From positions 1,176,149 to 1,240,148 of the forward strand of contig NZ_JAULBL010000002.1 in the NCBI RefSeq assembly GCF_030512175.1: 64,000 nucleotides of DNA, written 5' to 3'. This DNA comes from Paeniglutamicibacter sulfureus (GTDB taxonomy: Bacteria > Actinomycetota > Actinomycetes > Actinomycetales > Micrococcaceae). Below the pieces are notes generated by a model. It worked only from the letters and a program-made list of their open reading frames with translations. It did not search any database and was not told where the DNA came from. Both the position numbers and the translations under genes were made by a program. Positions within the stretch are counted from its first letter, which is position 1. Each line of letters starts with the position of its first letter. Positions 43,651-59,081 of the stretch are shown here, piece after piece.

Positions 43651-44994
43651 CTAGTCGAGAACCGCCTCGCGTTCGGCACTGCGCGCCGGGGCGGACGTGT
43701 CGGTGATGCGCGGCGGGATCATTGCCACGGACAGTGCCGCAACCACGCCGACGATGGCGAAGAAGACGAAGTTGAACTGGAAGTTCATGCCGGTGGAGGC
43801 GATCCAGCCGCCGATGATCGGCCCGGAGATGGCGCCGAGCCGGGCGAAGGACAACGCCCAGCCGGTTGCCGTGCCGCGCTGGGCCGCGGGGTAGTAGTCG
43901 GCGATGTAACCGGTGAGCACCAGGGAGGTGGAGATCGAGCCGATGCCCGCGAAGGCAACGAAGCACAGGTTGATGAACATGGTGTTCGGGAACATCAGCA
44001 GCAGGATGCCGCCGGCGCCGAGCAGGAAGAAGATCACCAGGATGGGCTTCTGGCCGAACTTGTCGGCCATGGCGCCAAGGGCCAGGCCGCCGGCGGCCGA
44101 GGCCAGGGAGAAGACCAGCAGGAACGTCAGCGAGGTGCCCAGGTCATAGCCGGCCTTGCGCATGATTTGCGGAAGCCACGTGTTCAGTCCGTAGACCAGC
44201 ACCATGCCGCAGAACAACGAGATCCAGAAGAAGACCGTGGAGCGCAGGTACTTGCCGGAGAACATTGCGCCCATGACCTCGCGCCACGGGACCTTGGCGC
44301 CTGGCCTGGCCGGGGGCACCGGCTTGTAGTCGCGCACGTTGAGCTTGGCGGCCAACGCCTTGGCCTCGGAGATCTTGCCCTTGGAGACCAGGTATTCGAG
44401 GGATTCCGGGAGCATCCAGGCGATCAGCGGCAGGAGGAGGATAGGCAGAGCACCGACTGCGACGACCCAGCGCCAGCCCAGCACGGGAAGCAGGTTCATT
44501 GCCACCAGTGCGGCGGCAACGATGCCCAGCGAGTAGCCGGAGTACATGATTCCGTAGTTCAGCGAGCGCTTCTTGGGAGCCGAGTATTCAATGGTCAGCG
44601 CTGCGGCGACGGGGATGATGCCGCCCATGCCCAGGCCGCCGAGGAATCGGAAGAGGCCGAAGATCTCCGGGGTCGGGGCCATCGCGGCTCCGGCCTGGGT
44701 GATGGTGAATATGACCATGGCGAGCATCAGCATCTTGCGACGTCCAATGATGTCGCTCAGCGTCCCGATGAACAAGGCGCCGAAGAGCATGCCGGCAAGC
44801 GCGTAGGCGCCCAGGCCGCCGAGCTCCATCGGGGAGAGCGACCATGCCTTGTATTCGGCAAGCGCCGGCAACACCGCTCCGAGCACACCGACGTCGTAGC
44901 CTTCGGCCAGGATGGCCAGCCAGCAGGCGAACAGCACAATGCCGGTGGTCCGTTTGGGAATGTTCCAGTCCGAAACCGTGGGTGAAGACGCCAC
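43651..44994 (-). CDS. AAHS-type aromatic acid MFS transporter
   Basis: A 447-residue, 12-TM aromatic acid:H+ symporter (PcaK/BenK-like). Motifs: LFACWLAILAEGYDVGVLGA (TM1; the DYD/EGYD aromatic-acid motif), GTLSDIIGRRKMLMLA (loop 2-3), GGLGMGGIIPVAAALTIEY and ALGAMADKFGQKPILV. The family takes up benzoate-like acids. It is divergent from the thioesterase at 45103, with a copy of the island's dyad operator in between, so it is a likely importer for the aryl-CoA pathway downstream. Confidence 0.88.
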   Translation of the reverse strand: MASSPTVSDWNIPKRTTGIVLFACWLAILAEGYDVGVLGAVLPALAEYKAWSLSPMELGGLGAYALAGMLFGALFIGTLSDIIGRRKMLMLAMVIFTITQAGAAMAPTPEIFGLFRFLGGLGMGGIIPVAAALTIEYSAPKKRSLNYGIMYSGYSLGIVAAALVAMNLLPVLGWRWVVAVGALPILLLPLIAWMLPESLEYLVSKGKISEAKALAAKLNVRDYKPVPPARPGAKVPWREVMGAMFSGKYLRSTVFFWISLFCGMVLVYGLNTWLPQIMRKAGYDLGTSLTFLLVFSLASAAGGLALGAMADKFGQKPILVIFFLLGAGGILLLMFPNTMFINLCFVAFAGIGSISTSLVLTGYIADYYPAAQRGTATGWALSFARLGAISGPIIGGWIASTGMNFQFNFVFFAIVGVVAALSVAMIPPRITDTSAPARSAEREAVLD

Positions 44995-45062
44995 GTTGTT
45001 CTCCTTGGGTGATGGGAAGGCGATTGGGGTGGTGCGGGGATCCCTAGTATTATGTCGTTAAA

Positions 45063-45076
45063 GTGACGCACGTTAC
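45063..45076. promoter_or_regulatory. Dyad operator copy A (GTGACG-CA-CGTTAC)
   Basis: GTGACGCACGTTAC is an imperfect palindrome (GTnACG-NN-CGTnAC). Closely similar 14-mers lie at 55174-55187 and 56735-56748, each in a divergent promoter of the same island. It sits between the AAHS transporter and the thioesterase gene. The PaaX-family protein at 55783 is the likely binder. Confidence 0.6.
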
Positions 45077-45102
45077 AATAGTTGGATGGAGATTGGTTGT
45101 CG

Positions 45103-45582
45103 ATGGTCAAGAATTCGATTCACATGCAACCGTCCGGCGATGCCTCGGTCGACGCGCTGCTGGGCGGGTTCCTCGCTGGCGCCGTGGCCGGAACCTCGCT
45201 GCTCCGCACTATCGAATGGGTCGACACCGACGCTGCGGGGCACCAACACAACTCCGTGATCATGCGGATGGTCGAAGCCGCGGAGGCCAAGCTGTTCCGG
45301 GAACTGGGAGCCGCCTCGTATTTTGCCATTGCACCCCGGGTCCGCCATGAAATCGACTACCGCGCCAAACTCTACTTCGGGCAGGCGGTGAGCACGGCCA
45401 TCGTTATCGAACATGTCGGCACCACATCCATGGGCTTTGCCTTCAAGGTCTGGGGACATCCGCACGAGATGCGTGAAGCCGTGCTGGCCGCGGAGGGTCG
45501 CTTTGTCACGGTCTGCGTGCCCGAAGGTTCCGAGAAGTCCGCGCCCTGGCCCGAGTCGATACGCCTGGCGCTTCACGGGTAG
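45103..45582 (+). CDS. Hot-dog fold acyl-CoA thioesterase
   Basis: A 159-residue 4-hydroxybenzoyl-CoA-thioesterase-like (YbgC/FadM type) protein. The active-site stretch is WVDTDAAGHQHNSVIMRMVE (~residues 36-55), matching D-x-D-x-x-G-H-x-x-N-S followed by a helix with E. The second-half strands are typical of the hot-dog fold. TTG 45082 is an alternative start; the ATG at 45103 with GGAGA ten bases upstream was preferred. It is probably controlled by the dyad just upstream. Likely role: release of an aromatic or ring-cleavage acid from CoA. Confidence 0.75.
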   Translation: MVKNSIHMQPSGDASVDALLGGFLAGAVAGTSLLRTIEWVDTDAAGHQHNSVIMRMVEAAEAKLFRELGAASYFAIAPRVRHEIDYRAKLYFGQAVSTAIVIEHVGTTSMGFAFKVWGHPHEMREAVLAAEGRFVTVCVPEGSEKSAPWPESIRLALHG

Positions 45583-45585
45583 CGC

Positions 45586-45604
45586 GGGGGGGGGGGGGGG
45601 GGGG
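45586..45604. repeat. 19-nt poly-G tract
   Basis: Nineteen consecutive G residues begin 4 bp after the thioesterase stop. Nothing comparable occurs elsewhere in the window. Slippage could alter tract length, but no intact gene reads across it. Confidence 0.85.
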
Positions 45605-45926
45605 TCCATGTGACGGCTGCTTGGAGCCGCCCGGGAGTATGCGGCGATGTCCAAGCGCTTCGCCAACGGTTTCGACCACCCGCCGGATTTTGCCGAACGG
45701 TTCATGGGCGAGCAAGCCACGGCTTCCTGCCTTTTCCTTCGAATCGGTGCGTTGGCGCCATCGCCGCCTCCCTCTCCCGCCGGGGGTTTAGAGAAGTCCC
45801 AGCGCCATCGACGGTGCGGTAAAGCGGTGCCTGGCTGCGCCACCCAGAGTTTGGCCCGCGGGTGATCCGCAATGTGAGAAGGGGTTTTTCCGGGACCGGT
45901 TTGACTGATATGTTGGCCAAGATCTA
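45605..45926. other. Gene-free stretch after the poly-G tract
   Basis: About 320 bp with no convincing gene. Around 45647-45725 one frame is protein-like for about 25 residues (SKRFANGFDHPPDFAERFMG) and then decays, so this may be a gene remnant. A short, poor hairpin and an A/T-richer promoter-like end lead to the palindrome at 45927. Confidence 0.4.
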
Positions 45927-45946
45927 TGTATGACGATCGTCATACA
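45927..45946. promoter_or_regulatory. Perfect 20-bp palindrome upstream of the cyclase/ThDP operon
   Basis: TGTATGACGATCGTCATACA is a perfect 20-bp palindrome, 62 bp before the cyclase ATG. Its length and TNGTATGAC..GTCATAC form are reminiscent of GntR/FadR-type operators. It differs from the GTGACG dyad of the neighbouring genes, suggesting a second regulator, encoded outside this window. Confidence 0.65.
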
Positions 45947-46007
45947 AGCTATATGGCGATCCTTACGGGCGTCAATTCGCCGTCCACCCCTAAGCACTGG
46001 AGTTCCG

Positions 46008-46790
46008 ATGAGTCCTGTTCATGCAGTCCTGGCGTCCTTGGCCGCCGGTGCCATTGAAATCCACGACCTGACCGCGCCGCTGTCGGCCGAAACGCCTACC
46101 CTTGTGTTACCGGAACCATTCTCGAACCTGATTGATTTCAGCATCGAGCAGGTCTCCGCATACAACGAGCCGGGGCCGTTCTGGAAGCACCACAACATCC
46201 ACACCGGCGAACACATCGGCACGCACATCGACGCGCCGATCCACTGGGTCACCGGCAAGGACGGCAAGGATGTTTCCCAACTGGACCCCGCCCGCCTCAT
46301 CGGCCCGGCGGTCGTGCTCGACTTCAGCGCCGAGGCCGCGGCCGACCCCGACTTTCTGGTCGACGTGGAGCACTTGGTTGCCTGGCAGGAGGAACACGGC
46401 GCCTTCCCCGCGAACTCGTGGCTGTTCTTCCGCACCGGATGGGACCAGTACGGACATGACAAGCAGGCGTTCCTGAACGTTGACGACAATGGATCGCACA
46501 CCCCGGGCTTCACCGCCGAGTGCGCCAAATGGATCGCCGGGCAACCGGAGATCTCCGGAGTCGGGGTGGAAACCGTGGGCATCGACGCCGGCAACGCCGG
46601 GGCACTCACCCCTCCGTTCCCGATGCACCATTTCCTGCTGGGCGCAGACAAATACGGGATCACCTCGCTGAAAAACCTGGCCAAGCTGCCCACCTTCGGC
46701 GCGATGGTCGTGGTGGCCCCGCTGCCTATCGTCGGAGGCACCGGATCACCGGCGCGCGTGCTGGCCATGGTGGGAGGTAACCCGGCATGA
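46008..46790 (+). CDS. Cyclase-family metal hydrolase (kynurenine formamidase-like fold)
   Basis: A 260-residue protein of the 'cyclase' (PF04199/KynB) family. The metal-ligand motif HTGEHIGTHIDAPIHW lies at residues ~65-80 (HxGTHxDxPxH). Other matches are AIEIHDLTAPLSAETPTLVL at the N-terminus and GIDAGNAGALTPPFPMHHFL near ~190-210. Family members include kynurenine formamidase and isatin hydrolase. It is coupled by a 4-bp overlap to the ThDP enzyme, so it may prepare the oxo acid or lactone for that enzyme. The ATG at 46008 is the only start in the conserved region. Confidence 0.82.
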   Translation: MSPVHAVLASLAAGAIEIHDLTAPLSAETPTLVLPEPFSNLIDFSIEQVSAYNEPGPFWKHHNIHTGEHIGTHIDAPIHWVTGKDGKDVSQLDPARLIGPAVVLDFSAEAAADPDFLVDVEHLVAWQEEHGAFPANSWLFFRTGWDQYGHDKQAFLNVDDNGSHTPGFTAECAKWIAGQPEISGVGVETVGIDAGNAGALTPPFPMHHFLLGADKYGITSLKNLAKLPTFGAMVVVAPLPIVGGTGSPARVLAMVGGNPA

Positions 46791-48445
46791 ACGTTGCACA
46801 ACTCGTAGGCAAGACCCTGGCCGAGCTGGGCGTTGGCCACTGCTTCGGCGTGGTGGGCTCGGGAAACTTCACCATCACCAACGCCCTCATGGAGCACGGC
46901 GTGCCGTTCACCGCCGCCCGGCACGAGGGCGGGGCCGCCACCATGGCCGATGCCTATTCGCGCACCAGCGGCAAGGTCTCCCTGCTCTCGGTCCACCAGG
47001 GCTGCGGGCTGACCAACGCCGCCACCGGCATCGGCGAGGCGGCCAAGTCCCGCACGCCGATGATCGTGCTGGCCGCCGAGGCAGCACCCTCCGCCGTCTA
47101 CTCGAACTTCGCCATGGACCAGGACGGCTTTGCCGCCTCCGTCCATGCGGTGCCCGAGCGCGTGCATTCGGCAGCCAGCGCCGTGGCCGACACCGTCCGT
47201 GCCTACCGACGCGCGGTCAACGACCGCCGCACCGTGGTACTGAACCTGCCGCTGAACGTGCAGGCGCAGAAAGTCGCCGGGGAGCAGGCCACGGCACCGC
47301 CAGCCGTTGTCCCGGCCGAACCCATCAGGCCCTCACGTGCTTCGGTTCAGGCACTGGCCGGCCTGCTGGCCGGCGCGCAGCGCCCGGTGTTTGTTGCGGG
47401 CCGTGGCGGGCGCGGAGCCAGGGACGAGATCCTGGCCCTGGCGAAGCACACGGGCGCGCTGGTGGCCACCTCCGCGGTGGCCAAGGGCCTGTTCAACCAG
47501 GACGACTTCAACCTCGGCATCTCCGGTGGCTTCTCTTCCCCGCTGGCAGCCGAACTGATCACCGGCGCCGATCTCATCGTTGGGTTCGGCTGTGCCTTGA
47601 ACATGTGGACGATGCGCCACGGGCACCTGATCGGCACGGAAACCAAGGTCGTCCAGGTCGATCTTGAGGAACAGGCCCTAGGCGCCAATCGCCCCATCGA
47701 TTTAGGTGTGGTGGGGGACTCGGCGCAGTGTGCAGCCGATGTGCTCGACGCACTTGTCGCCGGGAACGTCCAAGCGCGCGAGGGCTATCGGAGCGGGTCC
47801 GTGAAAGCGCGGATCGACGAATCCATCCACTGGCAGCAGGTCTACTTCGAGGACCTCTCCGACGGGCAATACATCGACCCGCGCACCCTGACCACGGCAC
47901 TCGATCGGATACTGCCGACCGAACGCATCGTGAGCGTCGATTCAGGGAACTTCATGGGCTACCCCAGCCAGTTCCTCTCGGTGCCCGACGAGTTCGGCTT
48001 CTGCTTCACCCAAGCCTTCCAGTCCATCGGCCTGGGCCTGTACACGGCCATCGGCGCCGGGCTGGCGCAGCCGGGACGGATCCCGGTGCTGGGAACAGGG
48101 GACGGCGGCTTCCACATGGCCATCGCGGAGCTGGATACCGCGGTGCGGCTGAACATGCCGTTGGTATGCACAGTCTACAACGACGCCGCCTACGGGGCCG
48201 AGGTCCATCACTTCGCGCTCGAGGACCCGGAAGCCGACATGAGCTCGGTGCAATTCCCCGACACGGACTTTGCGGCGATTGGGCGTGGTTTCGGGGCCGA
48301 TGGGATCACCGTGCGGACGCTCGCCGACCTGGATGCGGTGCAAACATGGCTGGATTCGAACCCGAGCCGGCCGCTGGTCATCGATGCGAAGATCGCCTCG
48401 GACTCAGGTTCCTGGTGGCTAGCCGAGGCCTTCAAGGGGCACTGA
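46787..48445 (+). CDS. ThDP-dependent enzyme (benzoylformate decarboxylase/ALS-like)
   Basis: A 552-residue thiamin-diphosphate enzyme. Catalytic Glu lies in FTAARHEGGAATMADAYSR (~46-56). The middle domain spans ~190-330. The cofactor motif GDGGFHMAIAELDTAVRLNM...VYNDAAYGAEV at ~440-475 has YND where NN is more usual. It may be a 2-oxo-acid decarboxylase or carboligase. ATG at 46787 overlaps the cyclase stop. The pair lies inside the aromatic catabolic island but has its own palindrome upstream, so a separate inducer is likely. Confidence 0.82.
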   Translation: MNVAQLVGKTLAELGVGHCFGVVGSGNFTITNALMEHGVPFTAARHEGGAATMADAYSRTSGKVSLLSVHQGCGLTNAATGIGEAAKSRTPMIVLAAEAAPSAVYSNFAMDQDGFAASVHAVPERVHSAASAVADTVRAYRRAVNDRRTVVLNLPLNVQAQKVAGEQATAPPAVVPAEPIRPSRASVQALAGLLAGAQRPVFVAGRGGRGARDEILALAKHTGALVATSAVAKGLFNQDDFNLGISGGFSSPLAAELITGADLIVGFGCALNMWTMRHGHLIGTETKVVQVDLEEQALGANRPIDLGVVGDSAQCAADVLDALVAGNVQAREGYRSGSVKARIDESIHWQQVYFEDLSDGQYIDPRTLTTALDRILPTERIVSVDSGNFMGYPSQFLSVPDEFGFCFTQAFQSIGLGLYTAIGAGLAQPGRIPVLGTGDGGFHMAIAELDTAVRLNMPLVCTVYNDAAYGAEVHHFALEDPEADMSSVQFPDTDFAAIGRGFGADGITVRTLADLDAVQTWLDSNPSRPLVIDAKIASDSGSWWLAEAFKGH

Positions 48446-48471
48446 CCCCGGGACCTCGGACGGCACTGGCG

Positions 48472-48508
48472 AAGTCCCGGCGGGGGATAAGGCTCCCCAC
48501 CGGGACTT
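48472..48508 (+). terminator. Terminator after the ThDP gene
   Basis: AAGTCCCGG (48472-48480) pairs with CCGGGACTT (48500-48508), with an inner GGGG/CCCC stem, and is followed by TCTTG. It begins 27 nt past the plus-strand stop at 48445. Confidence 0.65.
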
Positions 48509-48623
48509 TCTTGCCTTCGAGCGGCCCCGCCCGGGTCCATCCACGACGACCCAAGCTCCACATCGGATCCCGCGGTGCACGGACGACAACTCGGCATGCC
48601 CTCCAAGGGGACAACGCAGAGAA

Positions 48624-48662
48624 GGAGCGGCCCGACCCGCTTGTCGCGAATCGAACCGCTCC
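48624..48662 (-). terminator. Hairpin after the aryl-CoA operon
   Basis: GGAGCGG (48624-48630) pairs with CCGCTCC (48656-48662) across a 25-nt loop that can itself fold. It begins 17 nt past the stop of the bifunctional monooxygenase and is followed on the minus strand by TTCTCTG. Moderate evidence only. Confidence 0.45.
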
Positions 48663-48678
48663 CGCTCTGATTCCGAAG

Positions 48679-51078
48679 CTAGGCGCTGGGCACCAGGTTC
48701 TCCGTTGCCTTGTTGTTGGCCGGGGTCCAGCGCAGGTGCACCGTGCCCTCATCCTGAACGTCCTCGCGCAGCAGTGACAGGCGCGGACGGACAGCGTCGG
48801 TGCGTGCACTGGGCGGCTTGCGGCGCCCGGCCTTGAACGGCAGTGGCCAGGTGGCACCGTCGCCAACGTACTCCTGCTCGGCGGCGGCCTGCAGCGTCCA
48901 GGCCGGGTTGTACAGGTGCGTGCGACCCAGTGCCACCAGGTCGGCGCGTCCCGCCAGCAGGATGGAGTTCACGTCGTCGTAGGAGGAGATCGCCCCGACC
49001 GCGATGACGGCAACGCCGGCTGCGGCTGCCACTTGGTTGCGGATCTTGTCGGCAAACGGCGTCTGGTAGCTGCGCCCGAAGGCCGGCTTTTCCGCCTTGA
49101 TGATCTGCCCGGAGGACACATCGATCGACTTGACCCCGTGGTCGATGAACGCCTGGGCGATGGCCAACGCGTCGTCCTCGGTGTTCCCGCCCTCGGTCCA
49201 GTCGGTGGCGGAGATGCGCACGCCGATCGGCTTGTGCGTAGGCCACGCCTCGCGCACCGCGTCGAGCACCTCGAGCGGGTAGCGCAGGCGGTTTTCCAGC
49301 GATCCGCCGTATTCGTCGGTGCGCTTGTTGGACAGCGGGGACAGGAAGGAGGAGAGCAGGTAGCCGTGGGCTGCGTGCAGTTCCAGCAGGTCGAAGCCTG
49401 CTTCATCCGCGCGGCGGGCAGCGGCCACGAACTGCTCGCGGACCTCGTCCATCATGCTCCGGTCCATTTCCCCCGGGACGTGGCAGCCCTCGCCGTAGGG
49501 GATGGCGCTGGGGGCCAGCACCTCCCAGTTGCCGGTTTCCAGCGGCTCGTCGATGCCTTCCCACATGAGCCTGGTGGAGCCCTTGCGGCCGGAGTGGCCG
49601 ATCTGGGCGCCGATCTTGGCGTTGGAATTGCCGTGCACGTAGTCGGTGACGCGCTTCCACGCGGCGCCCTGTTCGTCGTTGTACAGCCCGGTGCAACCGG
49701 GAGTGATGCGCCCGATGTCCGAGACGCAGACCATTTCGGTCATGACCAGCCCGGCCCCGCCCATGGCCTTGGAACCCAGGTGCACCAAGTGGAAGTCGCC
49801 CGGCACGCCGTCGGTGGCCGAGTACATGTCCATGGGGGAGACCACGACGCGGTTCACCAGCTCCAGCTCGCCGATCTTGTAGGGCTGGAACATCGCCGGG
49901 GCGACTTCCTTCGAACCGGCCAGGCGGGCGAAGTCCTCATCGACGCGGGCGGCGAACTCGGTGTCGCGCAGCTTCAGGTTGTCATAGGTGATGCGGCGGG
50001 AGCGGGTGAGCAGGTTGAAGCAGAACTGCACCGGATCCTGGTCCTTGTACTGCCCGATGTTCTCAAACCACTCCAGCGAGGCCTGGGCGGCACGCTGGGT
50101 GGAAGCCACCACCGGGCGGCGCTCGGTCTCATAGGCAGCGAGGGCATCCTCCACGGAGGAATGTTCGTGCAGGCAGGCGGCCAGGGCAAGGGAATCCTCC
50201 ATGGCGAGCTTGGTGCCCGAGCCGATGGAGAAGTGCGCGGTGTGGGCGGCATCGCCCAGCAGCACGATGTTCTCGTGGCGCCAGTTTTCGTTGCGCACCG
50301 TGGTGAAGTTGATCCACTTCGAGTTGTTGGTCAGCACGTCGTAGCCGGCCAGTTCCTCGGCGAAGATCTCCTTGACCTTGGCCACTGCCTTTTCGTCGCT
50401 GACGCCGGGGGCGAAGACCTCGTCCTGGGTCTCGTCGAAGCCGGCCGCCCGCCAGACATCCTCGTGCATTTCCACGATGAAGGTGGAGCCCTCGTCCGAG
50501 TACGGGTAACCGTGGATCTGCATGGTTCCCGCGTCGGTTTCCTTGACGAAGAACTTGAAGGCCTCGAAGACCTGGTTGGTGCCCAGCCACATGTACTTGG
50601 AGGTGCGTGGATCCAGTGACGGCTTGAAGGAATCTGCGAAGCGGGTGCGGATCGCCGAGTTCAGGCCGTCGGCCGCCAACACCAGGTCGTAGTTTGCCGA
50701 AAGCTCTTCGACGTCCGGGGCCATCGTGGAGAAGCGCACGTCGACGCCGAGTTCGATGCAGCGGCGCTGCAGCAGCTCGAGCAGTTCCTTGCGGCTCATG
50801 GCCGCGAAGCCCTGTCCGCCGACGGTGTGCATCTCGCCGCGGAAGTGGATGTCGATGTCGGACCAGCGGGCGAAGCGGCGGGACATGTAGTCGGCAATGA
50901 CGGTGTCCGCATTGCCAATGCCGCCGAGCGTCTCATCCGAGAACACCACGCCGAAGCCGAAGGTGTCCGAGGCGGCGTTGCGCTCCCAGAGCGTTACCTC
51001 GTGCGCGGGGTCCAGCTGCTTCATCAGGGCCGCAAAGTACAGGCCGCCTGGGCCGCCGCCAACAACTGCGATTTTCAT
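48679..51078 (-). CDS. Bifunctional aryl-CoA 5-monooxygenase / OYE-type oxidoreductase
   Basis: A 799-residue fusion. The N-terminal half (1-395) is a group-A flavin monooxygenase: MKIAVVGGGPGGLYFAALMK (FAD), LAADGLNSAIRTRF (DG motif) and NIVLLGDAAHTAHFSIGSGT (GD motif). The C-terminal half (~400-745) is an Old-Yellow-Enzyme domain: RVVVSPMDMYSATDGVPGDF, AQIGHSGRKG, LLELHAAHGYLLSSFLSPLS and GVRISATDW. This exact architecture is that of 2-aminobenzoyl-CoA monooxygenase/reductase and the salicylyl-CoA 5-hydroxylase/oxidoreductase proteins. It hydroxylates C5 of an aryl-CoA and may also reduce the ring. It is the last gene of the FAH-cupin-TesB-ligase operon. Substrate (salicylyl- or anthraniloyl-CoA) is inferred. 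Confidence 0.88.
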   Translation of the reverse strand: MKIAVVGGGPGGLYFAALMKQLDPAHEVTLWERNAASDTFGFGVVFSDETLGGIGNADTVIADYMSRRFARWSDIDIHFRGEMHTVGGQGFAAMSRKELLELLQRRCIELGVDVRFSTMAPDVEELSANYDLVLAADGLNSAIRTRFADSFKPSLDPRTSKYMWLGTNQVFEAFKFFVKETDAGTMQIHGYPYSDEGSTFIVEMHEDVWRAAGFDETQDEVFAPGVSDEKAVAKVKEIFAEELAGYDVLTNNSKWINFTTVRNENWRHENIVLLGDAAHTAHFSIGSGTKLAMEDSLALAACLHEHSSVEDALAAYETERRPVVASTQRAAQASLEWFENIGQYKDQDPVQFCFNLLTRSRRITYDNLKLRDTEFAARVDEDFARLAGSKEVAPAMFQPYKIGELELVNRVVVSPMDMYSATDGVPGDFHLVHLGSKAMGGAGLVMTEMVCVSDIGRITPGCTGLYNDEQGAAWKRVTDYVHGNSNAKIGAQIGHSGRKGSTRLMWEGIDEPLETGNWEVLAPSAIPYGEGCHVPGEMDRSMMDEVREQFVAAARRADEAGFDLLELHAAHGYLLSSFLSPLSNKRTDEYGGSLENRLRYPLEVLDAVREAWPTHKPIGVRISATDWTEGGNTEDDALAIAQAFIDHGVKSIDVSSGQIIKAEKPAFGRSYQTPFADKIRNQVAAAAGVAVIAVGAISSYDDVNSILLAGRADLVALGRTHLYNPAWTLQAAAEQEYVGDGATWPLPFKAGRRKPPSARTDAVRPRLSLLREDVQDEGTVHLRWTPANNKATENLVPSA

Positions 51079-51156
51079 GGTGGATCCTTTTCTGTGACAC
51101 GGTGCGGCCGGTGGGGGCCGAGCGTTGCTGCCTAAGTTGGGTGGGAGGGGGGAAAG

Positions 51157-52788
51157 CTAGGATGCGTGGGACTCGGATAGGGCTTCGCGCAGCTTGAAAT
51201 GCTGGAGCTTGCCGCTGGGGTTCCGCGGAAGCTCATCGACAAACCGGATGTCGCGCGGGTACTTGTAGGGGGAGATGACTGACTTGACGAAGTCCTGGAT
51301 CTCCTTGGCCTTCGCCTCGGAACCGGCGACGCCCTCGACGAGGACCACGAAGGCGCACACCACCGAGCCGCGTTGCTCGTCGGGCCGGGCCACTACCGCC
51401 GTTTCCAGCACATCGTCGTGCTGCATGATGGCTTCCTCGACCTCGGGGCCGCCGATGTTGTAGCCGGAGGAAATGATCATGTTGTCGCTGCGCGCCTGGT
51501 ACGTAAAGTAGCCGTCGGCGTCCCTCACGAAGGTGTCTCCCGTGACGTTCCAGCCGTTGGAGACATAGGCGTGCTGGCGCTCGTCGTCGAGGTACCGGCA
51601 GCCGGTGGGGCCGATCACTGCCAGCCGTCCGGACTCGTCGGGTCCCAGTTCGTTACCTTCCGGATCAAGGATGGTGGCGCGGTAGCCGGGCACCGGGATT
51701 CCCGTGGCGCCCGGGCGGATGTCGTCGCCGGCTGCGGAGATGAAGACGTGCAGCAATTCGGTGGAGCCTATTCCGTCAATCAGCGACAGGCCCGTGGCAT
51801 CGTGGACCTGCTGCCAGGTTGCCGCCGGAAGGTGTTCACCGGCGGAGATGGCCAGGCGCAGGGGTCGCAGCAGGTCCGCCTTGCCCTCCTTGAGGATGGC
51901 GCGGTAGGCGGTGGGTGCGGTGAAGAGGATCGTGGCACCGGCGTCGTGGGAATACTGCGCCAACTCCACCGGGGTGGTGCGCTCGGTGAGGAGGGTGCTG
52001 GCGCCAAAGCGCAGCGGGAACACCACCAATCCGCCCAGGCCGAAGGTGAAGGCCAGCGGAGGGGATCCGGCGAAGACGTCGTCCGGGGTTGGTGCCAGGA
52101 TGTGCCGGGCGAAGGTGTCCGCGTTGGCCAGGATGTCCCGGTGGAAGTGCATGGTGATCTTCGGGACGCCGGTGGTCCCGGAGGTGGGTCCAAGCAGTGC
52201 CACGTCGTCGGCAGCGGTTTCGACGTTGGTGAATTCACCGGACTTGGAACCGGTGCGGGCTACCAGGTCCAGGGCATCGGCGGAGCCGACCGCGACGACC
52301 GGGTAGGCCGAGCCGGCGGCCTCACGGGCGTGGTCCAGGAATCGGTGGTCGCAGAGCATCAGCGAGGGCCTGGTCAGGGTCGCGAGCTTGCCGATTTCCG
52401 GGGCGCGCAGGGCGGGCATGGTGGTGACCACCACGGCGCCGGCCTTCAACACGCCGAGCCAGCAGGCCACGAGCCACGCGTTGTTCGGTGCCCGAAGCAT
52501 GACCCGGTTTCCCGGGATGATCCCGAAGTCCTCGGTGAGGACCTGGGCGACCTGGTTGGCCCGGGTCAGCAGCTCGCCGTAGCTCTGCCGCGACCCGTCC
52601 GGTGCCAGCAGCGCCGGACGGTCGGGCCCGAAGGCCGCGACGGCGTCATCGATCAGGACCGTGGCTGCGTTGAGCCGATCGGGGTATTGCAGCTCTGGCA
52701 ATGTGAATTCCAGGGTGGGCCACAATTCCTGCGGCGGCAGGTGGTCACGCGTGAACGTGTCGTGGTGGGCCGAAAGCGATAATTCCAT
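51157..52788 (-). CDS. Aryl-CoA ligase (2-aminobenzoate/salicylate-type AMP-binding)
   Basis: A 543-residue adenylate-forming ligase. Core motifs: ALLGPTSGTTGVPKITMHFH (A3 P-loop region), IDGIGSTELLHVFISA (A5), YVSNGWNVTGDTFVRDADGY (A7/A8), QARSDNMIISSGYNIGG (A8 hinge) and PRNPSGKLQHFKLRE (A10 with catalytic Lys). The TSGTTGVPK/EFLH-type features and STELLHVF are those of benzoate/2-aminobenzoate-CoA ligases. It activates the aromatic acid with ATP and CoA, making the substrate of the monooxygenase encoded next (78 bp downstream). Confidence 0.88.
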   Translation of the reverse strand: MELSLSAHHDTFTRDHLPPQELWPTLEFTLPELQYPDRLNAATVLIDDAVAAFGPDRPALLAPDGSRQSYGELLTRANQVAQVLTEDFGIIPGNRVMLRAPNNAWLVACWLGVLKAGAVVVTTMPALRAPEIGKLATLTRPSLMLCDHRFLDHAREAAGSAYPVVAVGSADALDLVARTGSKSGEFTNVETAADDVALLGPTSGTTGVPKITMHFHRDILANADTFARHILAPTPDDVFAGSPPLAFTFGLGGLVVFPLRFGASTLLTERTTPVELAQYSHDAGATILFTAPTAYRAILKEGKADLLRPLRLAISAGEHLPAATWQQVHDATGLSLIDGIGSTELLHVFISAAGDDIRPGATGIPVPGYRATILDPEGNELGPDESGRLAVIGPTGCRYLDDERQHAYVSNGWNVTGDTFVRDADGYFTYQARSDNMIISSGYNIGGPEVEEAIMQHDDVLETAVVARPDEQRGSVVCAFVVLVEGVAGSEAKAKEIQDFVKSVISPYKYPRDIRFVDELPRNPSGKLQHFKLREALSESHAS

Positions 52789-52849
52789 GAACTTGCCGTC
52801 TCTTTCCAGGAGTCGATTTTCAAGGGTGGGGCGTTGGTGCGGTGGTGCC

Positions 52850-53719
52850 TTAGCCGCGGGGTCCGCGGATCATGCCCTCCTGGGCAACGGTGGCCAGAAG
52901 CTGGCCGTCACGGGTGTAAAAGCGGCCCAGCGCCAGGCCGCGGTTGTTTTGGCTGGAGATGGCTTCCTGGACGTAAAGCACCCAGTCGTCCACGCGCCCG
53001 GGGCGGTGGAACCACATGGAGTGGTCAAGGCTCGCGGTTACCAGTCCCTCGGTGCTCCAGGACAGGTTTTGGGTCCGCAGCAGCGGCTCCAGGATGGTGT
53101 AGTCGCAAACATAGGCCAGTGCCGCACGCTGGGTGATGGCATCGTCGGGGAGCTCGGTGAAGGCCTTTACCCAGACAGCCTGGTGGGCGGCCGATGCCCC
53201 GTCCACCTCGAGGTACAGGGCTCCCGGGACATGGCGCATGTCGAAGGACCGGCCGGCCGACCAGTATTCCGCGACCGGGCCCTCGGCCTCGGCGAGCACC
53301 GTCGCGGCGCTGGCCAGGGTTTCGGGATCCAGGTCAAGGTATTCCGCGGGGGCCGTGGAAGACTGCTCGGGTCCGGTCTCCGGGACGTGGAAGGAGCCGA
53401 GTGCGGTGTAGACCGCCTTGCCGTTCTGGAATCCACGCACCTGTCGGGTGGAGTAGCCGCGGCCGTCACGCATGAGCTCGACTTCGTAGCGGACGGGCAC
53501 GTGCATGTCCACGGGACGCAGGAAGTAGGAGTGCATTGAATGCAGTTCCCTGTCCTGGCCCACCGACCGCATCATGGCCGTGGCCGCTTGGGCCACCATG
53601 TCCCCGCCGTAGGCCTTGGGCCACGGAACATATTGGGGGATGGCGGTGTAGGCCTGGTCAAAGAACTCGGCCTCGCAGGAGGTCATGTCGATGGCATCGA
53701 GGAAGATTTGTGAGCTCAT
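52850..53719 (-). CDS. TesB-type acyl-CoA thioesterase II
   Basis: A 289-residue double hot-dog thioesterase (TesB family). Features: YVPWPKAYGGDMVAQAATAM (~31-50), LHSMHSYFLRPVDMHVPVRY, STRQVRGFQNGKAVYTALGS and ASLDHSMWFHRP (~226-237), which holds the conserved Asp-His-x-x-x-x-H. It overlaps the upstream cupin gene by 4 bp. In this operon the natural job is to remove CoA from the hydroxylated aryl-CoA, giving a free gentisate-like or 5-hydroxyanthranilate-like acid; this is inference from order. Confidence 0.88.
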   Translation of the reverse strand: MSSQIFLDAIDMTSCEAEFFDQAYTAIPQYVPWPKAYGGDMVAQAATAMMRSVGQDRELHSMHSYFLRPVDMHVPVRYEVELMRDGRGYSTRQVRGFQNGKAVYTALGSFHVPETGPEQSSTAPAEYLDLDPETLASAATVLAEAEGPVAEYWSAGRSFDMRHVPGALYLEVDGASAAHQAVWVKAFTELPDDAITQRAALAYVCDYTILEPLLRTQNLSWSTEGLVTASLDHSMWFHRPGRVDDWVLYVQEAISSQNNRGLALGRFYTRDGQLLATVAQEGMIRGPRG

Positions 53720-54201
53720 GCCCGGCGGTATCCTTCCAGGCTTTCGTCGGCGACATCCTCGAGGTTCACGACGATGTTTTCCGGGGTGCGCGCGGTCAGC
53801 CAGACCAGGTCCTCGGTGATCGACATGTTCGCTTCGACGTGAGGCATGAACGGCGGGACAAAGACCCAGTCCCCGGCGGTCATGTCCAGGAACTGCTCGT
53901 AGTTCTCGCCAAAGTAGATCCGCCCATGACCCCTGAGCACGTATCCACCGGTCTCGGCCTCGCCGTGGTGGTGGGGCAGGGAGCGGTAGCCGGGTGTGTT
54001 GGAGACCTGGCCGAACCAGATCTTGGTGGCCGGTGTGTGCTGGATGCTGACCCCGGAAACGCGGATGCAGTCGCCGGATTGCGCCGTGTTGGTGTCTTCC
54101 TCGCCCTTGCGGGTGACCACGGGGACCACGACGCCATCGGCGTTGGCGTAGATGGCGTTGTCGCCTTCGGTGCGGTAGATCGTGGGGGTGGTGTTGCTCA
54201 T
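53716..54201 (-). CDS. Small cupin protein, candidate ring-cleavage dioxygenase
   Basis: A 161-residue single-domain cupin. Motif 1 is YRSLPHHHGEAETGGYVLRG (~69-88; G-x5-H-x-H-x3,4-E-x6-G) and motif 2 is GDWVFVPPFMPHVEAN (~110-125; G-x5-P..-H-x3-N). All metal ligands (H, H, E, H) appear present. It is much shorter than gentisate 1,2-dioxygenase (~350 residues, bicupin). It may be a short mononuclear-iron dioxygenase acting on the free acid or on a CoA-linked intermediate, or an isomerase. It stands between the thioesterase and FAH hydrolase genes, which is where a ring-cleavage step is needed. Confidence 0.8.
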   Translation of the reverse strand: MSNTTPTIYRTEGDNAIYANADGVVVPVVTRKGEEDTNTAQSGDCIRVSGVSIQHTPATKIWFGQVSNTPGYRSLPHHHGEAETGGYVLRGHGRIYFGENYEQFLDMTAGDWVFVPPFMPHVEANMSITEDLVWLTARTPENIVVNLEDVADESLEGYRRA

Positions 54202-54252
54202 GAGCTGTTCTCCTTGGCTTTCCTGGATGGTGGGATTGTTGGTGCGCGCTGT

Positions 54253-55104
54253 CTAGAGGTCGGCAGTGACGCGGGTCCGGACGATGTTCCTCAGGGTCCC
54301 GATGCCGGGGATCTCGGTGATCAGTTCATCCCCGTCCTTCAGGAAGAGCGGCGGGTTCATGCCCATGCCGACACCGCCGGGGGTACCGGTGAGGACGACA
54401 TCTCCGGGCCGCAGGATGGTGAAGGTGGAGATGTAGGACAGGAGCTTGGCAGCGGAGAAAACCAGCGTCTTGGTATTGCCGCGTTGGACTTCGGTGCCGT
54501 TGAGCGTGCAAATGACCTCGAGCCCGGCCTCTGGATTGATCTCATCGGCTGTGACCATGACCGGACCCAGCGGAGTGGTGCGGTCGAAGGCCTTGCCCTG
54601 GAGCCACTGGAGGGTCCGGCGCTGCCAATCACGCATGGAGATGTCGTTGGCCACGGTGTAGCCGGCGATGGCTGCGGCCGCCTCGTCCTCGCCGGCGTTT
54701 TGCAGGGTGGTTCCAACCACTACCGCAAGCTCGGCTTCCCAATCGAGGTCCACGGATTCGTCGGCAACGATCTGTGCATCGGGGTCGGTCAGCGTATCAG
54801 CGAATTTGGCGAAGAGCGTGGGATATGCCGGAAGGTCGCGACCCATCTCAAGGATGTGATCCGAGTAATTCAAGCCGCAGCAGATGACCTTGGCGGGTGT
54901 TGGCACGGGGTTGAGGATCTCGACGTCGGATGCCGGGACGGCGGCGAGACCGGGATGTTCCGAAGCGGCCTCACTGACAATTTGCTTCCACGCGGGCATG
55001 CCCAAGAGATCGCTGAGATTGCCTGCGGGCAGTGGCTGAAAAGCGTCGCCCACCACCAAGGCAGCGGTGGTGCTTCCAGCGTGTCGAATTGTTGCGAGTT
55101 TCAT
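54253..55104 (-). CDS. Fumarylacetoacetate hydrolase family protein
   Basis: A 283-residue FAH-fold protein. Signature stretches: PAKVICCGLNYSDHILEMGR (~71-90), VDLDWEAELAVVVG (~118-131; metal acids E/E/D), GYTVANDISMRDWQRR (~148-163), GKAFDRTTPLGPVMVT and YISTFTILRPGDVVLTGTPG near the end. Such proteins hydrolyse fumarylpyruvate, maleylpyruvate or acylpyruvates. It is the first gene of the minus-strand operon and lies behind operator B. It is expected to split the acylpyruvate made by ring cleavage. Confidence 0.88.
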   Translation of the reverse strand: MKLATIRHAGSTTAALVVGDAFQPLPAGNLSDLLGMPAWKQIVSEAASEHPGLAAVPASDVEILNPVPTPAKVICCGLNYSDHILEMGRDLPAYPTLFAKFADTLTDPDAQIVADESVDLDWEAELAVVVGTTLQNAGEDEAAAAIAGYTVANDISMRDWQRRTLQWLQGKAFDRTTPLGPVMVTADEINPEAGLEVICTLNGTEVQRGNTKTLVFSAAKLLSYISTFTILRPGDVVLTGTPGGVGMGMNPPLFLKDGDELITEIPGIGTLRNIVRTRVTADL

Positions 55105-55173
55105 TCCTCGGTCCCTTGCTAATCATCAAATCCATGTGTGTCGACTTTTTGACCGCCGTCACGTATCCTCAAT

Positions 55174-55187
55174 GTAACACGCGTCAC
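55174..55187. promoter_or_regulatory. Dyad operator copy B (GTAACA-CG-CGTCAC)
   Basis: GTAACACGCGTCAC matches the reverse complement of copy A (GTAACGTGCGTCAC) at 12 of 14 positions. It is centred in the 141-bp region between the FAH gene (minus) and RidA gene (plus), 70 bp and 59 bp from their starts. It probably controls both units. Confidence 0.6.
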
Positions 55188-55245
55188 CAGTCCGGCGCCA
55201 GAGCGGAACAGCCGCAATCGCCAAGAGAATACTTAGGAGAGCACG

Positions 55246-55665
55246 ATGACCGAAACCACCCTCTTCCAGAACCTCACCATCAATCCGGATTCCCTAGGCA
55301 AGCCTTCTGGATTCGCGCATGGCGTGCTCGCGGGCACGACCGTTTATCTGGGCGGGCAGACAGCCCTGGACAAGGACATGAAGATCGTTCCGGGCAACAT
55401 CGTCGATCAGTTCAAGCAAGCGTTCTCGAATGTCCTGGCGACCCTGGCCGAGGCCGGCGGCCATCCCGAGGACTTGGTCTCCGTGACCATTTACCTCACC
55501 GACGTAGATGACTACATGGCCAATGGCAGGGAGATCGGCCGGCTTTGGCGCGAAATGGCGGGCAGCAAATATCCGGCCATGGCCGGCATTGGCGTCAGCC
55601 GCCTTTGGCAGAAGGAAGCCCTCATTGAAATCCAGGGCGTGGCAGTGATCCAGGATCGCGCCTAG
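55246..55665 (+). CDS. RidA family enamine/imine deaminase
   Basis: A 139-residue YjgF/YER057c/UK114 protein. Motifs: PSGFAHGVLAGTTVYLGGQT (~20-39), DQFKQAFSNVLATLAEAGGH, LVSVTIYLTDVDDYMANGR and YPAMAGIGVSRLWQKEALIE. The catalytic Arg is present in GVSRLW and the acid in ALIEIQGVA. RidA-type proteins hydrolyse enamines and imines to oxo products with ammonia. A RidA gene in an aryl-CoA cluster suggests an amino-substituted substrate such as 2-aminobenzoate. GGAGAGC precedes the ATG at 55246; a strong terminator follows. Confidence 0.88.
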   Translation: MTETTLFQNLTINPDSLGKPSGFAHGVLAGTTVYLGGQTALDKDMKIVPGNIVDQFKQAFSNVLATLAEAGGHPEDLVSVTIYLTDVDDYMANGREIGRLWREMAGSKYPAMAGIGVSRLWQKEALIEIQGVAVIQDRA

Positions 55666-55706
55666 TTTCCCCCAGGACGTGACTACCCTCTGAATTAAAT
55701 AAGAAT

Positions 55707-55763
55707 GCCGTGCCGTGCAACCGAATCCCTGGGAAAGGGGAAGGTTGCGCGGCACGGCTTTTT
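55707..55763 (+). terminator. Strong rho-independent terminator after RidA
   Basis: GCCGTGCCGTGCAACC (55707-55722) pairs with GGTTGCGCGGCACGGC (55743-55758) over 16 bp with a single G-U pair, followed by TTTTT (55759-55763). It lies between the convergent RidA and PaaX genes. Confidence 0.9.
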
Positions 55764-55782
55764 CTTGAGCCGGGATCGTCCG

Positions 55783-56664
55783 TCAGCGGGCCGCCGCGTT
55801 GTTGTCAATGGCGCGGTCGGCATGGCGCTGGGCGCAGGGCGACAAAAGTGCGTGGAGTTCCTGGAAGAGATGCTCGGCCTCCAGCGCATTCCAGTTCTCC
55901 GGCAGGAATTTGATGGGCAGCCCGGGATCGAGGTAGGGCAGACGCCGCCATTGGGTGATCAGCACGAGGTAGTCCGCAAAGGCGAGGGCGTCGGATTCCG
56001 GATTGCTGCCCGACTTGCTTCGCCGGGCCCAGGCGCTCAATAGCCCACGATTGCGATCCAGAAAATCGGAATACAGGGCGTCAAGCGCCGGCAAGTCCCA
56101 CCACGTCCCGATGTTCTTACGCAGGTCGGCGTCGCCAATATGATCAGCCATGAAGAATTCGAGGTATTCGTTCAATCCACGGGTATCAAAGTAGGCGAGC
56201 ACCGAGTCGCGTAGATGCCCCGGGGCAATCCATAGACCTGGAGTGACCGAACCAAAGCCCATCCGCACCAGGGATGAACGGATCTTGTGCCGGATGTTGC
56301 GTTGGGATTCGGGCACGGTGAACGTAGCCAGAAGCCATTGGTCATCTGCCTTGGCCCGACGCGGGTGGAAAATTCGTTCATCGCCCTCAACAAACGTTTC
56401 GATGACCGACGGCGCCAATGCATATCCGTTGCGGCCGTTGACCTGAATACTGTCAATGACGCCGCGCTTCTTCAGACGGGATATCGACGACCTGGTCCCC
56501 GTGGATTCGACGCCGATGTCTTGCATCAGGGAAATGATGGTGGCCACGGCCAGGGCGCCGCCGTGTTGGCGTGCATACAGGCCGAAGAGCGAGACGATTA
56601 ATTGGTGGTGCCGAGGAACAGGGGCCTCGCCGGACCCCTTTTGATCGCCCACGTGTGTAGTCAT
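55783..56664 (-). CDS. PaaX-family transcriptional regulator
   Basis: A 293-residue protein. The N-terminal winged helix (~20-90) shows LFGLYARQHGGALAVATIIS, STGTRSSISRLKKRGVIDSI and NGRNGYALAPSVIETF. The PaaX C-terminal domain includes QWLLATFTVPESQRNIRHKI, VTPGLWIAPGHLRDSV and TQWRRLPYLDPGLPIKFLPE; the YLDPGLP-like stretch is diagnostic. PaaX represses aryl-CoA (phenylacetate) catabolism and is relieved by the aryl-CoA. By analogy this protein should sense the cluster's aryl-CoA and bind the shared dyad operator, one copy of which lies ~71 bp upstream of its own start. Confidence 0.87.
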   Translation of the reverse strand: MTTHVGDQKGSGEAPVPRHHQLIVSLFGLYARQHGGALAVATIISLMQDIGVESTGTRSSISRLKKRGVIDSIQVNGRNGYALAPSVIETFVEGDERIFHPRRAKADDQWLLATFTVPESQRNIRHKIRSSLVRMGFGSVTPGLWIAPGHLRDSVLAYFDTRGLNEYLEFFMADHIGDADLRKNIGTWWDLPALDALYSDFLDRNRGLLSAWARRSKSGSNPESDALAFADYLVLITQWRRLPYLDPGLPIKFLPENWNALEAEHLFQELHALLSPCAQRHADRAIDNNAAAR

Positions 56665-56734
56665 GCGCTCACTTTATCCAATGGGCACCGATAGCCTGTT
56701 CGAATGGGCAGGGAGTCACGGGCGTGTCGTTTTG

Positions 56735-56754
56735 GTGACGCCAGTTACGGTAAC
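56735..56754. promoter_or_regulatory. Dyad operator copy C (GTGACG-CC-AGTTAC) with overlapping GTTACGGTAAC
   Basis: GTGACGCCAGTTAC (56735-56748) matches copy A at 12 of 14 positions. GTTACGGTAAC (56744-56754) is a second, perfect 11-bp palindrome sharing its right arm. They lie between the divergent paaX-type gene and the D-2-hydroxyacid dehydrogenase gene. Confidence 0.6.
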
Positions 56755-56812: not shown

Positions 56813-57829
56813 ATGCGTCCACAGGTATTGATCTGCTCGTATCTCCAGAAGGAATTGGTCGACAAGCTGATCGCCGATCTGCCCGAGATCGACGTCGTCT
56901 ACCGAGCCGAACTGCTGCCGGTCCCACAGTTCGGCGCCGACCACCGGGGAAGGCAACGCGATCTGCGCGAGAGCCAAATCGCCGAATGGCGAACTCACTT
57001 GGCGGACGCCACCATCATGTTTGACTTTGACTGGTGGCAGCCAAAGGCCTGGCGGGAGCACAGCCCGAACCTCGAGTGGATCCAGGCCACGCAGGCAGGT
57101 GTTGGAGTGCGGGCCGAGGCACTGGGGCACACCGAGAACCAGGTTCGGATTACCACTGCAGCGGGTGTCCACGCCAAGCCACTGGCTGAATTCGCACTGG
57201 CCGGGTTGCTGTACTTCGTTCGAGAACTACCGCGCTTGGGATCCCAAAAAGATCAGCAACGGTGGGCGACCGGGGCGTCGAACACACTCTATGGCCAAAA
57301 AGCCTTGATCGTTGGCGCGGGCAGCATCGGTAGCGAAGTGGCAAGGACCCTGAGCTTCATGGGAGTCAGGTGCGATGGAACGATTCGCGGCACCAGAGTC
57401 CTTGGCCAGCCTTTCGAAAGGTCCGTCGCCTTGCAGGATTGCGACCTGGGGGAGTACGACATCGTGGTCTTGGCGTGCCCGCTGACCGAGGAAACCAGAG
57501 GCCTCTTCAACCGGCAGCGAATTTCCTCCATGAAGGTGGGTGCCCTGCTCGTGAACCTGGCACGAGGTCCGGTACTCGACCAGGAATCTGTAGTCGAGTC
57601 CTTGAACGCAGGTCGTCTTGGTGGAGCCGTACTTGACGTGACGGATCCTGAACCCCTGCCGGCAGGCCATCCCTTGTGGGATGCGCCGAATCTCATACTG
57701 TCGCCACATACGGCCGCAAATGTGGACGCCGAGAACGCACGCCTGATGGAACTCTTCACCAAAAATCTGCGCCTTTATCTGAGCGGTGGGAAGCTGATCA
57801 ATTCCTATGATCCCTTCCTGGGCTACTGA
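56813..57829 (+). CDS. D-2-hydroxyacid dehydrogenase family protein
   Basis: A 338-residue NAD-dependent 2-hydroxyacid dehydrogenase. The dinucleotide motif ALIVGAGSIGSEVARTL is at ~162-178. The catalytic Arg lies in LVNLARGPVLDQESV (~245-259), Glu in LDVTDPEPLPAGHPLWD (~275-290) and His in SPHTAANVDAENARL (~298-312). The N-terminal lid starts MRPQVLICSYLQKELVDKLI. It likely reduces a 2-oxo acid produced in the pathway. It is divergent from the PaaX gene with operator copy C between; AGGAATTTC precedes the ATG at 56813. Confidence 0.87.
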   Translation: MRPQVLICSYLQKELVDKLIADLPEIDVVYRAELLPVPQFGADHRGRQRDLRESQIAEWRTHLADATIMFDFDWWQPKAWREHSPNLEWIQATQAGVGVRAEALGHTENQVRITTAAGVHAKPLAEFALAGLLYFVRELPRLGSQKDQQRWATGASNTLYGQKALIVGAGSIGSEVARTLSFMGVRCDGTIRGTRVLGQPFERSVALQDCDLGEYDIVVLACPLTEETRGLFNRQRISSMKVGALLVNLARGPVLDQESVVESLNAGRLGGAVLDVTDPEPLPAGHPLWDAPNLILSPHTAANVDAENARLMELFTKNLRLYLSGGKLINSYDPFLGY

Positions 57830-57844
57830 CAGCGGACCCGGGAA

Positions 57845-58555
57845 TCAAGCTCTGGGTGTTGCATAGCGCAAGGGGCCGGCACTGAGGGGTGCGGTCGGCC
57901 GGACGTCATCGAGAAGTCCGGCCTGGACGACAAGCACCGCGAGTTGAACACGGTTGCTGATGTCGAGCGGTTCCATGATTTTCGCAAGTTGGGCCTTCAC
58001 GGTCCCTTCACTGACGTGAAGAAGTGAGGCTATCTGGGCATTTGTGTAGCCTTGCGTCAGGGAATGCAGCAAGCGTCGATCCCGCGGGCTCGCTTGACGC
58101 AGGAGCTGCGACTTGAAGTCGTACTTGCTTGTGGAATGAGGTGGGAACTGATCTGCATCGGCTGGCTTGGAAAAGATCATGTTTCCCGAGTGGATCATCC
58201 GAAGCGCTACTCCGAGATCAGTCGAAACGGCATTCTTGGCCAGATAGCTGCAGGCACCCGCTGAATGCGCTCGGGTCATGGTTTCTATGTCGTGAGCCGC
58301 CGAAAGCATGACAACCCTGGTCGCCGGGGCACCCGCCAATATCCGCTTGGTGGCCTCCGGGCTGGAGACATCTCTAATGGTGGTTTCCATGAGAACTAGA
58401 TCGGGTCGCTTGTCCAGGGCGGCTTCGATGGCTTCGTCGCCAGTTCCTGTGACTGCCTCGAGCTCAACATCGGGGCTTGATGCCAAGAGACTTTCGAGTC
58501 CAAGCCGAAGAAAGTAATCACCGTCTGCTAAATGGACTCGTATGCGAGGCTGCAT
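57845..58555 (-). CDS. LuxR/NarL-type response regulator with atypical receiver
   Basis: A 236-residue protein with an N-terminal receiver fold (~3-125) and a C-terminal LuxR helix-turn-helix (~155-215; RQASPRDRRLLHSLTQGYTN, then LLHVSEGTVKAQLAKIMEPL). The usual acidic pair reads ADGD (second Asp replaced by Gly). The phospho-acceptor position reads LVLMETTIRD, with Glu where Asp is expected. Lys in SYLAKNAV and Ser in VVMLSAAHD remain. It may therefore act without phosphorylation. No histidine kinase gene is adjacent. ATG 58555 follows TTAGGAGCCCTCCA. Confidence 0.82.
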   Translation of the reverse strand: MQPRIRVHLADGDYFLRLGLESLLASSPDVELEAVTGTGDEAIEAALDKRPDLVLMETTIRDVSSPEATKRILAGAPATRVVMLSAAHDIETMTRAHSAGACSYLAKNAVSTDLGVALRMIHSGNMIFSKPADADQFPPHSTSKYDFKSQLLRQASPRDRRLLHSLTQGYTNAQIASLLHVSEGTVKAQLAKIMEPLDISNRVQLAVLVVQAGLLDDVRPTAPLSAGPLRYATPRA

Positions 58556-59081
58556 TGGAGGGCTCCTAAAGGAATCTGAAAATATAGCACTAGCGCACAA
58601 TAAATCAAACGCAGAACCAACGACCAGTGCCCAAAAACTATATTTTTCGCTGTATTTCATTCCCATATTAGCCATGTTGAATAGCCGGTTGGCGAATGAA
58701 GCGCACAAAAGAGTACAAGTTACGGAAAACAGAGTGAATTATGGCCGAGTGTCCGACTTGGATGACCCATCGAGGGGAGTTTCAGGACGCTGGATCCCCG
58801 GGCGACGTGCCTGTTCGTGATAACCATACGGTGAATGGATTATGACTCGTGCGGCCCAGTCTAGGACCCGGCCCCTTACATGGCGTCAAGCGTGGAGGCG
58901 CGAACGGGATGTTCCTCTGAACACTTTCCATCGCCTGGAAGATGCACTGGCAGTAGACGCTTCGCCCCAAAAGGTGGGAAGCGTCGCCCACCATCGGCCA
59001 GCAAAATCTTGGCCGACGCGCCCGCGCCCAGCCATCCGATGGTGTCGACCTACAGCATTCTCAAATAAAGAATGAGCGGGG
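58556..59081. other. AT-rich gene-free region
   Basis: About 525 bp without a convincing gene. Roughly 58560-58750 is conspicuously A/T-rich for this genome (runs such as AAAAACTATATTTTTC). It holds the promoter of the response regulator. A hairpin GACGCTT (58956-58962) / AAGCGTC (58979-58985) with an inner CCC/GGG stem follows. Short open frames here lack the genome's codon bias. It may mark an old insertion or a regulatory DNA island. Confidence 0.5.

Follow-up and report, generated by a model that had tools for sequence, protein, structure and literature searches.

For plasmid pAL1 of Arthrobacter sp. Rue61a, the closest studied context that was found, RidA, FAH, cupin, thioesterase, ligase and oxygenase genes are present beside the gene of a PaaX-type regulator. 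The second paaX gene of this plasmid, which we take to be meqR2, encodes a repressor of quinaldine/anthranilate catabolism that reportedly binds the palindrome TGACGNNCGTCA cooperatively at the pAL1 promoters and is released by anthraniloyl-CoA (Niewerth et al., J Bacteriol 2013); the operator is said to lie in the promoter of the regulator itself as well. The pAL1 ligase is a proven anthranilate-CoA ligase, anthraniloyl-CoA occurs in anthranilate-grown cells and both PaaX-like regulators take part in the control of quinaldine degradation (PMC3534580). For PaaX of Escherichia coli, steric repression with an aryl-CoA as inducer has been described, together with an operator, TGATTC(N27)GAATCA, which is unlike the core discussed below (PMC9493321). 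Here, a related gene island was analyzed in a window of 64,000 nucleotides from Paeniglutamicibacter sulfureus (contig NZ_JAULBL010000002.1, positions 1,176,149 to 1,240,148), in which a DNA dyad is repeated in divergent promoters. Judged from sequence comparison, the PaaX-type repressor that the island encodes very probably uses these repeats as its operators, in the manner of MeqR2, and would most likely control the genes for anthranilate and isatin breakdown. The kind of switch is already known from pAL1; new are a re-placed site between the FAH and RidA genes, outer half-elements of the operator, in part belonging to promoters, and an operator-like site that is conserved upstream of the tryptophan 2,3-dioxygenase gene.

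The original prediction had named three 14-mers at 45063, 55174 and 56735, and all three are present there, each within a divergent intergenic region (AAHS transporter/thioesterase, FAH/RidA and PaaX/D-2-hydroxyacid dehydrogenase, respectively). Any two of them differ at 2 of 14 positions, which agrees with the claimed identity of about 12 of 14. The form GTnACG-NN-CGTnAC given for them is exact at 45063 only, the other two dyads each being off by one base. The repeated dyad itself is real, and the weight of the observation lies in its exact form and placement. In genome-wide pattern scans the exact form was confined to the island, and broad versions occurred near control frequency. This narrower form GTGACGCNNGTTAC, defined after the fact, is present exactly three times in the genome of 4.55 Mb, each time within the island, with none in the control, and any match to it is found in 89 of 395 family genomes. 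The perfect palindrome TGACGNNCGTCA occurs at four places against one in the control; the three copies outside the island lie inside long open frames and are not flanked by TAT.

For comparison with relatives, 38 stretches (36 from relatives and two with PaaX paralogs of the same genome) were ordered by their genes and the intergenic regions were compared, the CUP/RidA set being restricted to four named loci in one of these comparisons. Redrawn in this way, the element has TGACG-NN-CGTCA as its palindromic core, in most cases imperfect, and at a distance of 11 bp an outer half-element resembling TATGTCG. The pattern TGTCG-N6-TGAC-N4-GTNAC has three exact matches genome-wide, one in each of the divergent promoters, and six when one mismatch is allowed, compared to one for the reversed control. 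A weight matrix was trained on the sites that it later scored, so that only new matches carry weight. Site A, TATGTCGTTAAAGTGACGCACGTTAC (45051-45076, plus strand; core 45064-45075), contains the dyad at 45063, and its TGTCG-N6-TGACG is kept in five of seven homologous transporter/thioesterase regions; in L088 and L089 TGACGTGCGTTA is kept without TGTCG. Site C, CGTGTCGTTTTGGTGACGCCAGTTAC (56723-56748, plus strand; core 56736-56747), contains the dyad at 56735. Here, CGTGTCG-N6-TGACG is present in all 12 PaaX/dehydrogenase regions of the genus and the right half is variable: the GTTAC half is found only in the window and in one genome of the same species and is missing from 10 of the 12. In an alignment of seven of these regions the main invariant blocks are CGTGTCG-N6-TGACG and the paaX start region. 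The inverted repeat alone was rejected as the whole element on these counts. A fourth site, D, has the perfect core TGACGATCGTCA (45931-45942, plus strand) before the isatin-hydrolase-like gene, with a second near-core TTACGGGCGTCA at 45963-45974, and similar cores precede the counterparts of this gene in relatives. Site D matches TGACGNNCGTCA perfectly, sites A, B and C with one to three mismatches. In a number of rearranged islands cores precede the isatin-hydrolase counterparts as well as the transporter, thioesterase, TPP and paaX genes.

Between the FAH operon and RidA the predicted operator exists, but its conserved core lies at 55150-55161 and not at 55174. Site B, TGTGTCGACTTTTTGACCGCCGTCAC (55137-55162, plus strand), with the core TGACCGCCGTCA, is conserved across the family. 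An FAH or CUP/RidA region is present in 34 of 39 sequences, the window counted, and site B was found in each of these 34. All of them carry TRTRTCG-N6-TNAC-N3-CGTCA-NN-TA and TARCACG, and 32 carry CTCAA-NN-TARCACG; the core is perfect in five. The strict site B pattern, which fixes several columns by construction, is present in 70 of the 77 regions compared upstream of RidA in named genomes, and most of the remaining seven (L131, L175, L177, L183, L187, L190 and L191) have degenerate versions. The reported second dyad GTGACGCGTGTTAC (55174-55187, minus strand) falls in the CTCAA..TARCACG part. It is intact in six of 12 other regions of the genus and kept outside the genus only as its TARCACG half, and was therefore rejected as the principal operator between FAH and RidA. 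In the direction of FAH transcription this part reads TGNTANNTT, an extended -10 form in all 34 regions, and the dyad overlaps TGTTACATT, which is probably the extended -10 of the FAH operon; the dyad would be at most a secondary site. The predicted -10 TACATT (55171-55176, minus strand) has the form TGnTAnnTT in 34 of 34 regions. Transcription of the FAH operon is predicted to start near 55164 if the reported start site of the pAL1 lower pathway is transferred, which would presumably place the site B core at +4 to +15, the position also reported for MeqR2. In the other direction TCGACT-N17-TATCCT (55141-55169, plus strand) is a plausible RidA promoter, as deduced from sequence, with its predicted -10 at 55164-55169, and encloses the site B core. 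A corrected operator map results for the anthranilate-CoA islands found in Micrococcaceae and on some Rhodococcus plasmids.

The regulator proposed to bind sites A to D is encoded at 55783-56664 (minus strand) and matches the Pfam families PaaX, PaaX_M and PaaX_C (PF07848, PF20803 and PF08223), all above their cut-offs, corresponding to a winged helix-turn-helix, a Cas2-like middle and a C-terminal domain. The phenylacetate equivalog TIGR02277 was not reached (146.3 bits against a cut-off of 264.55). These PaaX domains are shared with E. coli PaaX, and PDB 8a39 was matched at E 1.7e-18. The helix-turn-helix segment RSS(I/V)SRLKKRG is common to the window protein and both pAL1 PaaX proteins, and the paralogs of the same genome deviate from it at a few positions. 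Via the cupin, 78 island loci were located in named genomes, and 72 of them contain a PaaX gene. Five of the six genomes without PaaX in the locus have a relative elsewhere, with a best identity of 40-52%; in the sixth, where the locus is on a short contig of a metagenome-assembled genome, no PaaX relative was found at the limit used. A tree of PaaX proteins was poorly supported at its inner branches and is not relied on here. In the Sinomonas-type loci L104, L105 and L107 two or three PaaX paralogs are clustered beside island genes.

In pAL1, TGACGNNCGTCA precedes the two upper operons (record positions 9727 and 10133) and the second paaX (30318), and the RidA/FAH region of the plasmid carries the site B element as TATGTCG-N6-TTACGATCGTCA. 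Compared with pAL1, the window has isatin-hydrolase, transporter and dehydrogenase genes in place of the quinaldine genes, and compared with the MeqR2 system it has two sites with imperfect cores and an outer TGTCG. The Rhodococcus plasmids pN9T4-1 and pRLCBG43 carry the same gene set with a PaaX gene in another order, with TATGTCG-N6-TGACGATCGTCA between RidA and FAH of pRLCBG43 and TATGTCG-N6-TTACG in pN9T4-1. On pRLCBG43 of Rhodococcus erythropolis BG43 (L230) only a few kb separate the island, which has a perfect TGACGATCGTCA, from aqd genes, with AqdR annotated; these aqd genes presumably degrade the Pseudomonas quinolone signal, yielding anthranilate. Because the core matches the operator reported for MeqR2, the same palindromes flank homologous pAL1 operons and PaaX is present in most of the loci, an operator of the PaaX-family regulator remains the best explanation of the repeats, as originally proposed, with the FAH/RidA site re-placed, a fourth site added and the proposed control of paaX itself uncertain.

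From the sites, their positions, their conservation and their co-occurrence with PaaX we infer binding, repression and an effector as follows. In the absence of substrate, PaaX would occupy the TGACG-NN-CGTCA-type sites that overlap or abut promoters and block RNA polymerase at the transporter, thioesterase, isatin-hydrolase, RidA and FAH/ligase/oxygenase units. Anthranilate activated by the CoA ligase of the island would give an aryl-CoA, most likely anthraniloyl-CoA, which would free PaaX from the DNA, so that the island is expressed. Where one inner half-site is poor, binding would probably be aided by the outer half-element of TATGTCG type, which is 11 bp away from the inner half-site.

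Several points weigh against this reading. Searching the window with three mismatches gave five matches where 4.73 were expected, the broad dyad GTRACNNNNGTYAC occurs at 16 places in the genome against 14 for the reversed control, both without enrichment, and a loose genome scan for TAT-N10-TGACGNNCGTNA with at most two mismatches was uninformative (55 and 45 matches, 52 and 61 in the control). The window PaaX is only 51% and 50% identical to the two pAL1 PaaX proteins and the NCBIfam name of the fusion oxygenase is salicylyl-CoA 5-hydroxylase/oxidoreductase, so the effector could differ. Two further PaaX relatives (41% and 36%) are encoded in the same genome. Half of the site C palindrome is lost in most of the genus. 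Control of paaX itself is the weakest part of the interpretation, because about 60 bp separate the paaX start from the nearest site, C, whose palindrome is conserved in one half only. The paaX start region (56664-56700), TGCGCT..C.TTATC.AAT, hardly varies within the genus, and a leader would have little space there, which suggests a leaderless transcript.

One of the two PaaX relatives is encoded just downstream of a tryptophan 2,3-dioxygenase gene (paralog at C9:96137; gene pair at L113:12120-13866, about 96119-97865 of contig C9 of the genome G000, compared in L240-L254), and the operator-like TTGACGNNCGTCG precedes this dioxygenase. Such a paralog, alone or together with the island PaaX, might bind the island sites, although we consider this unlikely. 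Of 15 genus genomes, 10 have TTGACGNNCGTCG exactly and five have a close variant of it; TGACG is kept in 14 of 15, with CGACG in L251, and the spacing fits TTGACG-N16-TANNNT. A full-length PaaX paralog adjoins the dioxygenase in 14 of 15 genomes, and in L254 only a part of one. In two genomes (G074, G126) no PaaX match was found at E 1e-80 and the dioxygenase site is nonetheless kept without a close island PaaX, which fits binding by a paralog. However, the island PaaX travels with the island, and the dioxygenase site mostly ends in CGTCG instead of CGTCA, so that the specificities may differ slightly. In the island on pN9T4-1 the dioxygenase is itself present, preceded by TGATGAGCGTCA, together with an aminotransferase class V gene. 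An operator code common to PaaX paralogs seems to run along the route from tryptophan via kynurenine to anthranilate, and tryptophan 2,3-dioxygenase is thereby pointed to as sharing this code with the anthranilate pathway.

The conserved blocks could also be mainly promoter sequence, with TTGACG as -35 and CATA or TANNNT as -10. In that case some or all of the apparent operator, and the outer TAT/ATA in particular, would be sigma-factor sequence. The sites for this comparison came from the window, 34 of the 38 fetched stretches and the 78 named loci, with pAL1 added. They were selected only for a core matching at least 9 of 10 letters, outside island genes as located by tblastn but near one of them, and 47 non-redundant sites of 160 remained. 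T at -11 is found in 82 of 94 arms compared to seven of 22 arms of 11 intragenic control sites, and TAT occupies -13 to -11 in 46 of 94 arms compared to one of 22, the control being small in both cases. TTGACG-N16-CATANN fits several sites, the FAH -10 and the RidA -35 overlap site B, and gene-facing arms carry T at -11 more often (17 of 17) than back arms (12 of 17), the orientation resting on a rough open reading frame caller that left 13 of the 47 sites without a gene. Part of the outer signal thus reads as promoter; the outer TAT may be operator, promoter or both. As an account of the whole element, promoter sequence is improbable: the core is palindromic and variously positioned relative to promoters, the back arms too exceed the intragenic control, and CGTGTCG at site C matches no promoter that could be placed. 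Because CGTGTCG is kept there, the outer half-element likely has an operator role. The 12-bp palindrome reported for MeqR2 may be no more than the central part of a longer operator. An unlinked regulator of another family, whose operators may resemble the ACG-NN-CGT form, is very improbable as the binder, as Pfam scans of the island genes gave no other regulator between transporter and dehydrogenase and the palindrome agrees exactly with the operator reported for MeqR2.

Returning to the PaaX-type operator, a bolder extension can be put forward tentatively, with the odds somewhat against it. Actinobacterial PaaX-type regulators might read a 38-bp operator TATGTCG-N6-TGACG-NN-CGTCA-N6-CGACATA of four half-elements, outer and inner being one helical turn apart and the outer compensating a lost inner one, and this code, with both the island PaaX and the dioxygenase-side paralog as its readers, might join tryptophan, isatin and anthranilate breakdown into one aryl-CoA-controlled regulon.

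The island spans from the gene of an MFS transporter (43651-44994, minus strand), which is aromatic-acid/H+ symport-like with TIGR00895 as best match, but under its cut-off, to that of the D-2-hydroxyacid dehydrogenase (56813-57829, plus strand). On the plus strand a small hotdog thioesterase (45103-45582; PF13279) is followed by the isatin-hydrolase-like enzyme (46008-46790), which matches isatin hydrolases in the PDB with a best E of 1.1e-72, and by a benzaldehyde-lyase-like TPP enzyme (46787-48445), a possible isatinate decarboxylase. The FAH operon (minus strand) comprises the FAA hydrolase family protein as first gene (54253-55104), the cupin protein (53716-54201), an acyl-CoA thioesterase (52850-53719), the aryl-CoA ligase (51157-52788) and an FAD/FMN fusion aryl-CoA hydroxylase/reductase (48679-51078; NF006101 above cut-off). 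RidA is encoded at 55246-55665 on the plus strand. The identity to the pAL1 counterparts is 77% for the oxygenase, 74% for the ligase, 83% for the cupin, 80% for RidA, 70% for the thioesterase and 59% for FAH. By its likeness to the proven pAL1 enzyme the ligase is probably an anthranilate-CoA ligase, and the fusion enzyme probably acts on anthraniloyl-CoA. A response-regulator/LuxR-type gene (57845-58708) follows the dehydrogenase on the opposite strand and neighbours it in several loci of the genus.

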